Origin: Agrococcus lahaulensis DSM 17612
GTDB lineage: Bacteria; Actinomycetota; Actinomycetes; Actinomycetales; Microbacteriaceae
DNA: 64,000 nt
Direction of reading: 5' to 3'
NCBI RefSeq assembly: GCF_000425105.1
Contig: NZ_AULD01000006.1
Coordinates: 186,001 to 250,000, forward strand
Shown: one piece after another, positions 20,666 to 25,781 of the stretch
Layout of the letters: each line of letters begins with the position of its first letter
How positions within the stretch are numbered: the first letter of the stretch is position 1
Made by a program: the position numbers and the translations under genes
The notes under the pieces: model-generated
Told to the model about the DNA's origin: nothing
What the model saw: only the letters and a program-made list of their open reading frames with translations
Databases searched by the model: none

Positions 20666-21871
20666 CACCCCGACGGGGCCGACGCGCGCGGCCCGCACGA
20701 GCATCCACACCGCTCCGACGAGGAGCGCGACGTGCAGCGCGTTCCGCGCCGTGAGGAGCGCGACCGCCGCGGGGTGCGCCGCGACGAGCCAGTCGTAGGT
20801 CCACGGGAACTGCAGCTGCGTGAGCGCCGCGACGAGCGCGATCGCGCCGACCCCGACCCAGTGCCGCCGGGCCCCGGCCTCGGCGAGCAGCAGTGCGGGC
20901 ACGAACAGCCACAGCACGAACTGCGGCGAGCCGACCTTGTTCGTCACGATCATCGCCTCGACGAGCGCGACCGCGAGCCACACGATCGCCTCCCGCCGGT
21001 GCGCGCGCCGCACGGCGAGGGCGCCGAGCGCGCCGATCGCGAGCACCGCGGCGACGAGCACGGGCGTCGCGAGCGCCGCGACCGCGCCGACGCCGTCGCC
21101 CTCGACCTGGAACGTGTAGATGTCGCGGTCGAATGCGACCTGCGCCTCGCCCGCGCTCGCGAGCCACAAGTAGGGCGTCGCGGCGACGGCCTCGATCTGC
21201 AGCCCGCGATCGTCCTGCTCGGTGAGGAACGACAGCGCGTGGCCCGAGCCGGCGAGCGCCGCGAGCCCGAGCACCGCGGCCGAGACGAGCGCGCCCGCCG
21301 CGACCACGCGCATCCGCTCGCGCCGCACGACGAGCAGCGCGAGCCACAGCACGCCCGGCCAGACCTTCATCCACGCGCCGATCGTGAACAGCGCCGCCGC
21401 GACGCCCGGCCGGTCGCTGCGCAGCGCCACGATCGCGATGACGCACAGCGCCACGACGACCGTGTCGATGCGGGCGATCGCGACGGGGCCGAGCGCCACG
21501 AGGAGCGCGAGCCACGTCCACGCCATCACGAGCCCGCGCGGCACGCGCAGCAGCAGCGCGAGCGCGATCGCGTCGAGCGCCGTGACGAGGAGCATCCACA
21601 CGAGCGGCAGTGCGGCCGTGCCGAACGCGCTCGAGGCGAGGATCGGCGCCCACGCGAGCAGCGGGTAGACCCACGGCACGTCGACGCCGAGCCACTGACC
21701 GGGCCGGCCCTCGCTGCCGAGGCCCTGCTCGACCCAGAACGGGTAGACGGTCAGGACGTCGCCGTACGCGTCCGAGACGCTCGGCAGGGCGAGGATCGCG
21801 AGCAGCGCGTGCACGCCGCCGAACGCGAGCCACAGCCAGGCTCGAGGCTGGCACGCCCGAGCCTGGCTCAG
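20543..21871 (-). CDS. Polytopic membrane glycosyltransferase (GT-C like, GT87/DUF2029-type)
   Basis: 442-residue, about 10-12-segment membrane protein with the look of a polyprenol-phosphate-sugar-dependent mannosyltransferase: an acidic first loop (SVSDAYGDV), repeated RxDTVV and WMKVWP segments, and [17 protein letters not shown]. Specific sugar and acceptor unknown. No ATG or TTG begins the frame. The best start is CTG at 21871, overlapping the upstream TGA as CTGA and preceded at 5 nt by a perfect AGGAGG; the only nearby alternative is GTG at 21814, which would cut off part of the first helix. The last 41 codons or so run antisense to metX. It is translationally coupled to the CNNM pair, an odd partnership. 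Confidence 0.8.
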
Positions 21872-22908
21872 AAGAGCCTCCTGGTCGCGTCGCGCACCTC
21901 GCCGACGAGCTCCTCGATGATGTCCTCGAGGAACAGCAGCCCCGTCGTGTCGCCGTTCGCGTCGAACGAGCGCGCGATGTGCGCGCCGGTCGAGCGCATG
22001 AGCGCGAGGGCGTCCTCGAGCTCGGCGTCCTGGTAGATCGAGGCGAGCTGGCGGATGCGCTTGGCCGGCACGGGCACGTCCATGTCGGCGTCGTCGGCAC
22101 CGAGCACGTCCTTCACGTGCACGTACCCGCTCGGCATGCCCTCCGCATCCGACACGATGTAGCGCGAGAAGCCGCGCTCGCGCACGGCGGCCTCGAGGTC
22201 GGTCGGCGTCGCGCCCGGGGGCAGCGTGACGATCTCGTCGAGCGGCAGCGCGACGTCGCGCACGCGGCGCTCGGTGAACTCGAACGTGCGCGAGATCGCG
22301 CCCGTCGGGTCGAAGAGCACCCCCTCGCGCTTCGAGGTCTCGACGATCGTCTCGACCTCGTCGATCGTGAAGGCGCTCGCGGCTTCGGCGACCGGCTGCA
22401 CGCGGAACAGGCGCAGGATGCCGTTCGCGATCTCGTTCATCGCCCAGATGACGGGCTTGAAGATGCGCGAGATGAGCACGAGCGGCGGCGCGAGCAGCAG
22501 CACCGCCCGGTCGGGCACCGAGAAGGCGGCGTTCTTCGGCACCATCTCGCCCAGCACGACGTGCAGGTAGGTCACGAGCAGCAGCGCGATGACGAACGCG
22601 ACGACCGAGACGACCTCGGGCGCGAGGCCCGTCCACTCGAGCGGTCCCTCGAGCAGGTGGTGGATCGCCGGCTCGGAGACGTTGAGGATCAGCAGCGAGC
22701 AGATCGTGATGCCGAGCTGGCACATCGCGAGCATGAGCGAGACGTGCTCCATCGCCCACAGCGCGAGCTTCGCCGCGCGGTTGCCGCGGTCGGCGAGCGG
22801 CTCGATCTGGCTGCGGCGCGCGGAGATGACGGCGAACTCGGCGCCGACGAAGAACGCGTTGGCCGCGAGCAGGATGAACAGCCACAGGATGCCGAGCCAG
22901 TCGTTCAT
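21868..22908 (-). CDS. CNNM/CorC-type protein (DUF21 + CBS pair), short form
   Basis: 346-residue membrane protein with an N-terminal DUF21/CNNM transmembrane domain (about residues 1-190, with [10 protein letters not shown] typical of the family) and a CBS pair (about 205-340). It lacks the C-terminal CorC_HlyC domain of its upstream neighbour. CNNM proteins are implicated in Mg2+ or Co2+ transport. The last two sense codons before LF are AGG AGG, rare here, and form the ribosome site for the next gene. The ATG overlaps the preceding TGA (ATGA). Confidence 0.9.
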
Positions 22909-24236
22909 CGCTCGCCCTCCGCCGCTCCGGCCGCCGGCTCGCTCGCCGGCTCGTCCTCGATGAAGCGCACGCGGTCGACGCGCCGGCCGTCGACGCGGTC
23001 GACGCGGAGCGTGCCGCCCTCGACGCGCACGGTGTCGCCGACGCTCGGCAGCGTGCCGAGCTCGGCCATGATGAAGCCGCCGATCGTCTCGAACGGGCCG
23101 TCCTCCGGCACCGCGACGCGCGCTCGCTCGAGCAGCTCGTCGGGCCGGAAGGAGCCGGGGAAGGTCACCCAGCCGGGGCCGCGCACGACCTCGACGTGCA
23201 TCCGGTCGTGCTCGTCGGAGACCTCGCCGACGACCTCCTCCACGAGGTCCTCGAGGGTCACGATGCCGGCCGTGCCGCCGTACTCGTCGACGACGACCGC
23301 CATCTGGTAGCCGCGCTCCTTGAGGTCGCCGAGCAGCGCGTCGAGGTGCACCGACTCGGGCACGCGGTGCGGCTCCTCGGCGATCGCCGCGACCGGCACG
23401 TCGGCGCGCCGCTCGCGCGGCACCGAGATCGCCTGCTTGACGTGCGCGATGCCGAGCACCTCGTCGAGGTCGCCGTCGACGACCGGGAAGCGGCTGAGGC
23501 CCGTCTGGTGCGCGAGCTGCACGAGGTCGGCGACGGATGCGGAGCGATCGATCGCCTGGACGCGCGGCCTGGGCGTCATGACGTCGCCCGCCGAGAGCTC
23601 GGCGAAGCGCAGCGTGCGGGCGAGCAGCGTCGCGGCGCCGACGTCGAGGGCGCCCTCCATGGCGCTGCGGCGCACGAGCGTCGAGAGCTCCTCGGCGGTG
23701 CGGGCGCCCGAGAGCTCCTCCTTCGGCTCGAGGCCGATCGAGCGGAGGATGCCGTTGGCGGAGCCGTTGAGCGCGAGCACGGCGGGCTTGAACACCGCGG
23801 TGAAGGCGCGCTGGAACGGGGTGACGCCGATCGCGGTGCCGAGCGGCTTCGCGAGCGCGAGGTTCTTGGGCACGAGCTCGCCGACGATCATCGAGAGGAT
23901 CGTCGCGCCCGTCATGGCGATGACGCTCGAGAGCGGGCCGGCGACGCCCTCGGCGAGGCCCCACGAGACGAGCACGGGGGTGAGCTGGCGCGAGATCGCG
24001 GGCTCCATCGTGTAGCCCGTCAGGAGCGTCGTGAGCGTGATGCCGAGCTGCGCGCTCGAGAGGTGCGTCGAGGTCTGGCGGAGCGCCTTGATCGTGCCGT
24101 CGAGGCGCTTCTCGCCGCGCTCGCGGCGCGCCTCGAGGTCTGCGCGGTCGAGGTTGACGAGCGCGAACTCGCTCGCGACGAAGAGGCCGGTCCCGACGGT
24201 GAGGATGACGCCGAGGCCGATGAGCAGCGCATCCAT
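22905..24236 (-). CDS. CNNM/CorC-type protein (DUF21 + CBS pair + CorC_HlyC), full form
   Basis: 443-residue protein: DUF21/CNNM membrane domain with about four segments (residues 1-200, including [14 protein letters not shown]), CBS pair (about 215-335, ending in [24 protein letters not shown], the family signature) and a CorC_HlyC domain at the C-terminus. Family role: Mg2+/Co2+ transport, probably export or sodium-coupled exchange. It may form a heteromer with the coupled short paralogue. The ATG at 24236 is preferred to the adjacent TTG at 24239. That ATG overlaps the stop of a 15-codon leader frame (TGATG). Confidence 0.92.
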
Positions 24237-24283
24237 CAACGAGCCGGTTCCGGCTGCGGACTATGACTGTGGTCGTCGTTCAC
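24236..24283 (-). CDS. Candidate leader peptide of the CNNM operon (MNDDHSHSPQPEPAR)
   Basis: 15 codons plus stop: GTG AAC GAC GAC CAC AGT CAT AGT, then CCG CAG CCG GAA CCG GCT CGT TGA. The GTG stands 6 nt after TACAAT, the best -10 match in the window, so it would be read leaderless. The TGA overlaps the ATG of the full-length CNNM gene by one base. Six codons end in A or T (AGT, CAT, AGT, GAA, GCT, CGT), unlike nearby genes. Acidic residues followed by P-x-P-x-P resemble enterobacterial MgtL, whose translation senses Mg2+; that likeness is inference. It could also be a fortuitous short frame. Confidence 0.5.
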   Translation of the reverse strand: MNDDHSHSPQPEPAR

Positions 24284-24289
24284 GGCGAC

Positions 24290-24295
24290 ATTGTA
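24290..24295 (-). promoter_or_regulatory. -10 box (TACAAT) of the CNNM operon
   Basis: TACAAT differs from the TATAAT consensus at one base. It lies 6 nt before the GTG of the 15-codon leader frame, and 53 nt before the CNNM ATG. No TTGACA-like -35 is visible 16-18 nt upstream. Confidence 0.55.
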
Positions 24296-24308
24296 GAGGA
24301 GCGCATCC

Positions 24309-24337
24309 GGCGCCGGCCCTGCCGCCGGGCGGGCGCC
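24309..24337 (-). terminator. Hairpin just after the guaB1 stop
   Basis: GGCGCC-G-GCCC-N7-GGGC-G-GGCGCC, a 10-bp stem with one internal G.G mismatch, starts 1 nt after the guaB1 stop. It has no U-tract, which is common in high-GC actinobacteria. Confidence 0.4.
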
Positions 24338-24338
24338 G

Positions 24339-25781
24339 TCACCACGAGACCGGCAGCGCCTTGCCCTCCTCGTAGCCGGCCGCCGACTGCACGCCGACGC
24401 GCGCGCGATCGCGGAAGGCCGGCACCGAGTCGGCGCCCGCGTACGTGAACGACGAGCGCACGCCGGCCGTGATCATGTCGACGAGGTCCTCGACGCTCGG
24501 CCGCGCGGGGTCGAGCAGGATCGTCGAGGTCGAGATGCCCTCGGCGAAGAGCTGCTTGCGCGCGAGGTCGTAGGCGTCGAGCTGCCCGAAGCGGCCGACG
24601 ACCGCGCGCGTCGACGCCATCCCCCACGACTCCTTGAAGAGCCGCCCCTGCGCGTCGCGCTGCAGGCGGCCCGGGGCCTCGATCGTGCCCGCGAACCACG
24701 AGCCGATCATGACGCTCGACGCGCCCGCCGCGAGGGCGAGCGCGACGTCGCGCGGGTAGCGCACGCCGCCGTCGGCCCACACGCGCGCGCCGAGCTCGAG
24801 CGCGGTCGCCGAGGTGTCGAGCACCGCCGAGAACTGCGGGCGGCCGACCGCCGTCATCATCCGGGTCGTGCACATCGCGCCGGGGCCGACGCCGACCTTG
24901 AGGATCGATGCGCCCGCGGCGACGAGGTCGCGCACGCCGTCGGAGGAGACGATGTTGCCCGCCGCGATCGGCAGCTCGTCCCCGACCGCCGAGCGCACCG
25001 CCTCGAGCGCGCGGAGCATGCCCCCCTGGTGCCCGTGGGCGGTGTCGACGACGATGACGTCGGCACCCGCTGCGACGAGCGCGGCCGCCTTCGCGCCGGG
25101 GTCGCCGTTGATGCCGACCGCGGCGGCGACGCTCAGCCTGCCGTCGGCGTCGAGCGCCGGCCGGTAGATGTCGGTGCGCAGCGCCCCGAGCCGCGAGGCG
25201 AAGCCGATCAGGCGGCCGTCGTCGACGACGGGCGCGACGGCGACCCCCGCCCGCTCGAGGGCGGCGAACATCGACCGGCCGTCGGCGACGTCGGCGGGCG
25301 CGAGCTCGGGCAGGCGGGAGTGGAGCAGGTCGCCGAGCGTCGCATCCGGCAGCGCGTGACCGAGCCGCTCCGCGGGGATCGCGCCGAGCAGCATGCCGTC
25401 CGCATCCTCGACCGCGACCGCGTGGCCCTCGAGCGCCGGGACGCGCTCGAGGACGTCCTGCACGACGTCGCCGGGCGCCGCGCGATGCGCCGACTCGAGC
25501 GAGATCGGCTGCGCCTTGACCCATGCGATCGACCCGACGGTCTGCGCGAGCGGCGGGTCCTGCGTGAGCACGGCGAGGCCGCCGCGCCGCGCGAGCGTCG
25601 CAGCCATGCGGGGGCCCGTGACCGAGTTCATGTTCGACGCGACGATCGGGAGCGTCGCGCTCGTGCCGTCGTCGGGGGCGAGGTCGACCGCCATGCGCGA
25701 GCCGACGTCGCTGCGACTGGGGACGAGGAAGACGTCGGAGTAGGTGAGGTCGTGCTCCGGGACGTCGTCGATGAAGCGCAT
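24339..25781 (-). CDS. guaB1: GuaB1-type IMP dehydrogenase/GMP reductase family protein
   Basis: 480-residue (beta/alpha)8 enzyme of the IMPDH/GMPR family with a CBS pair inserted at about residues 95-200. The catalytic cysteine loop is GPGAMCTTRMMTAVG, and GDELPIAAGNIVSSDGVRDL is a phosphate-loop segment. Actinobacterial GuaB1 proteins, long annotated as IMP dehydrogenases, are known in mycobacteria to act as GMP reductases that return GMP to IMP; I infer the same here. The first half starts MRFIDDVPEHDLTYSDVFLVPS, typical of this group. TACCCT stands 6 nt before the ATG (leaderless). Confidence 0.9.
   Translation of the reverse strand: MRFIDDVPEHDLTYSDVFLVPSRSDVGSRMAVDLAPDDGTSATLPIVASNMNSVTGPRMAATLARRGGLAVLTQDPPLAQTVGSIAWVKAQPISLESAHRAAPGDVVQDVLERVPALEGHAVAVEDADGMLLGAIPAERLGHALPDATLGDLLHSRLPELAPADVADGRSMFAALERAGVAVAPVVDDGRLIGFASRLGALRTDIYRPALDADGRLSVAAAVGINGDPGAKAAALVAAGADVIVVDTAHGHQGGMLRALEAVRSAVGDELPIAAGNIVSSDGVRDLVAAGASILKVGVGPGAMCTTRMMTAVGRPQFSAVLDTSATALELGARVWADGGVRYPRDVALALAAGASSVMIGSWFAGTIEAPGRLQRDAQGRLFKESWGMASTRAVVGRFGQLDAYDLARKQLFAEGISTSTILLDPARPSVEDLVDMITAGVRSSFTYAGADSVPAFRDRARVGVQSAAGYEEGKALPVSW

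Follow-up and report, generated by a model that had tools for sequence, protein, structure and literature searches.

What is the role of the short open reading frame that immediately precedes a CNNM/CorC gene in Agrococcus lahaulensis? The frame lies in the window (the whole 64,000-nucleotide stretch of DNA that was analysed), where the initial annotation described it as a possible MgtL-like leader peptide at positions 24230-24300. These coordinates are correct, with all elements lying on the minus strand. The gene order on this strand (21868-25781) is a guaB1-type gene, the leader, a CNNM-CBS-CorC gene and a CNNM-CBS gene. The first of these (24339-25781) is of the guaB1-type IMPDH/GMP reductase family, according to a Pfam IMPDH match. 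A guaB1-type C-terminus, ending in GYEEGKALPVSW and a stop codon, is also found upstream of the leader in many relatives. CNNM gene 1 (22905-24236) has the identity first given to it; Pfam assigns CNNM (DUF21), a CBS pair and CorC_HlyC to its 443 amino acid product, which is 98% identical to that of Agrococcus pavilionensis, the nearest named relative. CNNM gene 2 (21868-22908) encodes 346 amino acids with CNNM and CBS domains (Pfam), and its start overlaps the gene 1 stop (ATGA).

Direct reading bears out the layout of the leader as originally described. A -10-like element, TACAAT (24290-24295), is followed by a 6 nt spacer (GTCGCC) and a GTG start codon (24283-24281). The leader ORF (24236-24283) has 15 codons and a stop (GTG AAC GAC GAC CAC AGT CAT AGT CCG CAG CCG GAA CCG GCT CGT TGA) and encodes MNDDHSHSPQPEPAR. 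The TGA (24238-24236) shares one base with the CNNM ATG (24236-24234), so that stop and start together read TGATG (24234-24238). As claimed, the peptide contains three acidic residues, two histidines and P-x-P-x-P, and six codons end in A or T (AGT, CAT, AGT, GAA, GCT and CGT). The acidic start, N-D-D at codons 2-4 (24272-24280), is marked out by the Agrococcus alignment and by the composition of all leaders. The S-H-S-P-x-P-E-P segment (24245-24268), which holds an H-x-P-x-P motif and alternating prolines, is marked out by motif counts and by the invariance of AGTCATAGTCC in the 14 Agrococcus leaders examined.

The initial annotation had suggested leaderless translation of this frame. The position of the -10-like element across leaders is consistent with this. 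TAnnnT occurs 5-11 nt upstream of the start codon in 120 of 122 leaders, compared with 9 of 2657 background codons. The 122 leaders were picked by peptide start and overlap alone, not by promoter, and the background consisted of ATG and GTG codons further upstream in the same loci. In addition, the first 20 nt of the leaders are less structured than their dinucleotide-shuffled versions (p about 1e-13), as expected of leaderless initiation. Leaders of families f36 and f37 have a Shine-Dalgarno-like sequence instead. Hence, leaderless initiation is not universal; it is in the Microbacteriaceae and in f62 that the leader is apparently initiated as a leaderless mRNA.

Absence of the leader frame from close relatives had been set in advance as the observation that would speak against the proposal. 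We assembled 110 orthologous CNNM genes (E <= 1e-100) from 100 Microbacteriaceae genomes of 84 genera. A leader precedes 104 of the 110, in a tally made by eye that includes weaker variants such as MDGHRP and MDKAGSD. The commonest start is MDDPP(S/P), and the exact MDDPP DNA pattern, ATGGAYGAYCCNCC, occurs on the same strand 24-173 nt upstream of 68 of the genes. Nearly all of the other 42 carry a variant leader in their upstream regions (MDDHHHRHSP, MEDPPSHSP, MDEPPS, MGEPPS, MDDSPHHSTWP, MDDTEGHRP and others). No leader was seen upstream of six genes (G034:C12, G066, G084, G092, G110 and G115); in G034, a second CNNM copy retains the leader that the C12 copy lacks.

We also inspected the upstream regions of 80 named relatives, and of further genomes, for the leader. 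Most Agrococcus leaders take the form (N/T/H)D(D/E)xSHSPxP(E/D)P and end in TGATG. The A. casei leader, MNDDDHSPSSSTA, and the MSDEHHSPW.. leaders of the A. jejuensis group both have an ATGA overlap. Microbacterium leaders read MDDPPS(C)xxSPH(R/C)P... and end in TGATG. Most other Microbacteriaceae have MDDPP(S/P)..., and their overlap is of the ATGA type or a little longer. Thus, the P-x-P-x-P pattern first noted is present in Agrococcus, but most relatives have a DDPP(S/P) core instead. Other genes with the same leader were sought and this candidate was set aside. Elsewhere in the 100 genomes ATGGAYGAYCCNCC has 21 matches. Of the three ATGGACGACCCTCC matches among these that were inspected, two are contig-edge copies of the leader (G068 and G099) and one is an unrelated stretch (G113).

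Coupling across TGATG, also part of the original proposal, fits the wider pattern. About 97% of 157 unique leaders overlap the CNNM start by 1-13 nt. From the overlap lengths, the leader and CNNM frames are almost never the same, which rules out the leader as an N-terminal extension of CNNM. Short ORFs are common in such DNA, and a chance ORF beside a GC-rich gene start might be imagined; conservation, promoter position and overlap statistics exclude it, and we give that reading practically no weight. Judged by sequence comparison, the leader is a real, strongly conserved ORF, and the objection of a frame absent from close relatives does not hold.

Equivalents occur outside the Microbacteriaceae, in further families and orders of the class and in a second class. 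The neighbouring family f6 has MDDPPSHMPWPL, f37 has MGEPPSTRHR, f47 has MSTPPDDPPSRR and MSCAPDEPPSRP, and f33 has MHHDPPSRAS. Family f36 has MKDSDDAGCSSGRPTR with SEE, SED and TDD variants. In another class of the Actinomycetota (f62 and its order) the leaders are MDDPSHPNP, MDDPSHPRP, MDDPSHRRP, MDEDPPARR, MDNDPPDQ and MIEPQTDDDPPEP. No clear equivalent was seen in the f22, f53 and f55 loci inspected and, hence, the distribution is broad but not universal. In f18 (L206 and L208) the leader has been lost and the CNNM start itself lies behind a -10 element and looks leaderless; f18 is a natural leader deletion for comparison. In f37 (L223, L228, L229 and L245-L248) a stretch resembling GAAAGGTGTGAGCG lies upstream of the MGEPP leader, and several of these loci have a second frame (GTGAGCGTCCGCCCATGGG...) that overlaps the start of the leader.

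The composition of the peptide is strongly skewed towards its start. In residues 2-6, acids make up 37%, prolines 33% and basic residues 1%, whereas later residues are 6-8% acidic (6% for residues 7-12). At least two acids fall within residues 2-6 in 138 of 157 leaders, and PP occurs within residues 2-8 in 111 of 157. Asp3-Asp4 is invariant among 14 unique 15-codon SHSP-type Agrococcus leaders. In separate lineages Asp and Glu have been exchanged with the charge kept (MEDPP, MDEPP, MGEPP and DEPPS; SDD, TDD, SEE and SED in f36). The survival of the acids through D-to-E changes points to selection on the acidic charge of the leader start. Of 85 thinned leaders, 26 contain H-x-P-x-P, compared with 3.1 expected on shuffling. 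A metal-binding role for the leader histidines, which the initial annotation had in mind, is hypothetical, although this motif is itself conserved. Acidic-proline starts outside Agrococcus include MDDPP(S/P), MDEPP, MGEPP, DDDPP and DDPSHP. By composition and position, the leader fits an intrinsic ribosome destabilisation (IRD) peptide, for which the biochemical hallmark would be Mg2+-dependent drop-off in vitro, countered by L31 or EttA-like factors.

Is the peptide needed at all? A leaderless short ORF might simply feed ribosomes to the structured, Shine-Dalgarno-poor start of a membrane protein gene, in a natural bicistronic design, with the peptide irrelevant. The near-universal overlap, the leaderless start and the open 5' end would all be expected of such a plain translational coupler, as would the lack of a Shine-Dalgarno sequence before Agrococcus CNNM genes. 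However, mere coupling gives no reason for DD(PP) at residues 2-6 throughout the phylum, and it leaves the charge-preserving D/E exchanges and the near-absence of basic residues at these positions unexplained. Nor is MDDPP general to gene starts, to judge from the small number of other matches in the 100 genomes. We therefore consider a plain coupler improbable, although it retains some weight.

The prolines raise a different alternative, in which the leader senses a translation factor (EF-P, or an ABC-F protein such as the YfmR or EttA types) or charged tRNA-Pro, and Mg2+ acts at most indirectly. DPP and PP cores do dominate the leaders, acidic and Asp-Pro motifs are where EttA and YfmR act (PMC11282234, PMC11381351), and early leader codons are biased to the genome-rare CCT, AGT and AGA. 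Conversely, the linked gene is of a Mg2+-efflux family and not one of translation or proline metabolism, and Agrococcus and other lineages keep the acids without PP. On balance, a factor or proline sensor seems unlikely.

The codon bias is pronounced. Compared with the CNNM body, early leader codons include AGT at 40% versus 4%, CCT at 34% versus 3% and AGA at 28% versus 0. The first 12 codons are rich in AGT, CCT, AGA, CAT and AAA, all rare in the downstream gene; GAC is not enriched. These rare early codons may reflect either slow decoding or a 5' end free of structure. AGTCATAGTCC is invariant, synonymous positions included, in the 14 Agrococcus leaders. The pN/pS ratio of these leaders is 0.76, a value that is uninformative given the constraint on synonymous sites as well. 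Both CCTCC and CATAG are more frequent than under position-specific synonymous randomisation; CCTCC is found in 103 of 157 leaders compared with 48 expected. Stops in the -1 frame (UAG or UAA) occur in 51 of 85 thinned leaders versus about 35 expected, mostly as CATAG(T/A)CC, and +1-frame stops are rare (7 of 157). A link between the -1-frame UAG excess and the CNNM frame was discarded, as the two frames do not coincide in every group. The codon, CCTCC, CATAG and -1-stop counts are indicative, phylogeny having been handled by thinning alone. This nucleotide constraint extends beyond the peptide and, therefore, the peptide may not be the sole selected feature.

How, then, do ribosomes reach the CNNM start? 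No Shine-Dalgarno sequence is present in the last 20 nt before the CNNM ATG at the A. lahaulensis locus, nor before the CNNM ATG in the Agrococcus leaders examined. Hence, reinitiation after the leader is the simplest route in this genus. In Microbacterium, and in others with a CNNM Shine-Dalgarno sequence, that sequence is often within a local hairpin. This suggests an RNA-level attenuator, in which CCUCC or CGCCCC would sequester the CNNM GGAGG or GGGGG, translation of the leader would open it, and the peptide would be secondary. The CCTCC excess, the hairpins of many Microbacterium leaders with some two-sided changes, and pairing of the Shine-Dalgarno sequence slightly above that with shuffled upstream sequence (p 0.03) all argue for such a device. 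However, the effect is marginal in Microbacterium (mean z -0.34, p 0.04) and absent in Agrococcus, which has neither the Shine-Dalgarno sequence nor the hairpin. An attenuator accounts neither for the acids nor for leaders without a Shine-Dalgarno sequence. We therefore rejected the sequestering hairpin as the main explanation and see only a small chance that it is the primary device; it can be compatible with a Mg2+-dependent gate as the output step of that gate.

Separately, in the Microbacterium alignment, leader codons 10-12 contain a nearly invariant TCGCCCCAC, which is complementary to the CNNM Shine-Dalgarno region GGGGGUGA. Two other RNA devices were considered and discarded. For a riboswitch (M-box or another Rfam element), there was no match above the gathering score in positions 23000-25000. 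For an amino-acid attenuator of the trp or leu type, there is no run of codons for one amino acid, and the terminator of such a system has no room because the leader overlaps the gene.

The sign of any regulation depends on the protein encoded downstream. The domains of the 443 amino acid protein, in which Pfam finds two CBS stretches besides CNNM and CorC_HlyC, fit the CNNM/CorB/CorC family of Mg2+ transport proteins, and the product is similar to E. coli CorC (4hg0) and archaeal CorB (7m1u). The Mg2+ ligands and pi-helix of MtCorB comprise Ser21, Ser25, Ser71, Gly110-Glu111, Pro114 and Lys115 (PMC8242095). Alignment to MtCorB indicates that the pi-helix GExxPK is conserved, and that Ser21 is replaced by Thr and Ser25 by Val. 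With the ligands only partly conserved, there is some doubt about which ion is transported. The function best documented for CNNM/CorC proteins is Mg2+ efflux (PMC12421838, PMC8242095), and the product of CNNM gene 1 probably shares it. For an efflux protein the expected logic is the reverse of MgtL, with drop-off at low Mg2+ turning the gene off. Thus, of the MgtL-like character first proposed, the acid-plus-proline N-terminus shared with ribosome-destabilising peptides stands; the expected output is reversed, and the gene downstream belongs to an efflux family.

The most likely single explanation, which we rate at about an even chance, is that a conserved, co-transcribed leader cistron gates CNNM translation by Mg2+-dependent ribosome destabilisation. 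Transcription would start at, or within a few nucleotides of, the leader start codon and so permit leaderless translation. The ribosome would then meet an acidic and subsequently proline-rich start (NDD..SHSPxPEP here). From known biochemistry, acidic-proline N-termini would destabilise ribosomes, and more so at low Mg2+. As the leader stop and the CNNM start overlap in different frames, in Agrococcus with no Shine-Dalgarno sequence, CNNM would be read mainly by ribosomes reinitiating after the leader. At low Mg2+ drop-off would leave the exporter unmade; with sufficient Mg2+ the leader would be finished and the exporter made. The leader and the coupling are argued from sequence and conservation; the Mg2+ sensing is what we infer. 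In the papers cited, IRD and related stalling were demonstrated in E. coli, Salmonella and B. subtilis, and the gate would require them of actinobacterial ribosomes too. Also counting against the gate are the nucleotide constraint beyond the peptide, the partly conserved CNNM ligands, and the lineages in which the gene persists although the leader has gone (the six of 110 above, and f18). The wider proposal, of an Actinomycetota-wide device that licenses Mg2+ export by using ribosome stability itself to sense Mg2+, in mirror image of MgtL, we hold at slightly below even.

Most known cases in which ribosome destabilisation senses an ion come from enterobacterial Mg2+ genes. If our reading is right, this type of sensor is general and usable with either sign. 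The same grammar would have been kept in a phylum that split very early from the Enterobacteria, on an export gene, and through reinitiation rather than transcription termination. A function would also be in hand for one of the numerous short leaderless ORFs that actinobacteria possess. The leader is a single, small, mutable element for studying the control of actinobacterial Mg2+ export. Provisionally, we regard it as new; no earlier description was found in the literature, in a search with most subscription journals and preprints outside its coverage.

Comparison with known systems begins with MgtL of Salmonella and E. coli. Ribosomes are destabilised by acidic-proline starts, EPDP of MgtL among them, and MgtL exploits this at low Mg2+ to turn on mgtA (PMC11282234). 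Both leaders are short, carry acids and prolines at the N-terminus and precede a Mg2+ transport gene. Ribosome drop-off is the presumed sensing step of MgtL (PMC11282234) and is predicted, by analogy, for the CNNM leader. Conversely, MgtL sits in a leader RNA, acts through Rho-dependent termination and turns the importer gene mgtA on at low Mg2+. The CNNM leader overlaps its gene, which is of an efflux family and predicted to be off at low Mg2+, and it differs in sequence and in phylum. As initially annotated, there is no MgtL-type leader RNA at this locus, and no room for one, because the leader stop overlaps the gene start. With no such RNA, no room for a Rho-dependent terminator and no importer downstream, the CNNM leader is not a member of the MgtL family.

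MgtQ, which precedes Salmonella mgtB, is likewise a tiny ORF with acids (Asp2 and Glu5), and the ribosome destabilisation that it causes controls translation of the downstream Mg2+ gene (PMC8092293). Unlike the CNNM leader, for which overlap and reinitiation before an efflux gene are proposed, MgtQ is intergenic, has 8 amino acids and switches on an importer by means of alternative stem-loops. In B. subtilis, Asp-Pro motifs stall ribosomes without EF-P (PMC11381351). The M-box (ykoK) riboswitch is a cis-acting Mg2+ control known in actinobacteria too (PMC12810186). However, it is a structured RNA aptamer, whereas the CNNM leader region has no Rfam match above threshold.

Further parallels concern CorC-domain proteins, for which a part in Mg2+ efflux is implied; high Mg2+ induces both corC and mgpA (PMC12421838). 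In the YoaL-mgpA (yoaE) system, a leader ORF overlaps the upstream region of a CorC-domain gene with high-Mg2+ induction, and blocking the YoaL start lowers MgpA translation (PMC12421838). MgpA differs in being a TerC-type protein of Enterobacteria, and an acidic-proline start is not described for YoaL in the text consulted (PMC12421838). CorC (YbeX) of E. coli and Salmonella shares the gene family and the high-Mg2+ induction, and its N-terminus is reported to carry an IRD sequence (PMC12421838). There, the acidic motif is within the CorC protein; in Agrococcus it is in a separate overlapping cistron. E. coli CorC starts MSDDNSHSSD (PDB 4hg0) and the A. pavilionensis leader is MNDDNSHSPRPEPTR; DDNSHS is common to both. 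We noticed this likeness only in hindsight, and it may be fortuitous. A mirror-image device in the Actinomycetota would have evolved either separately or from a very old CorC-linked sensor (compare MSDDNSHSS of E. coli CorC).
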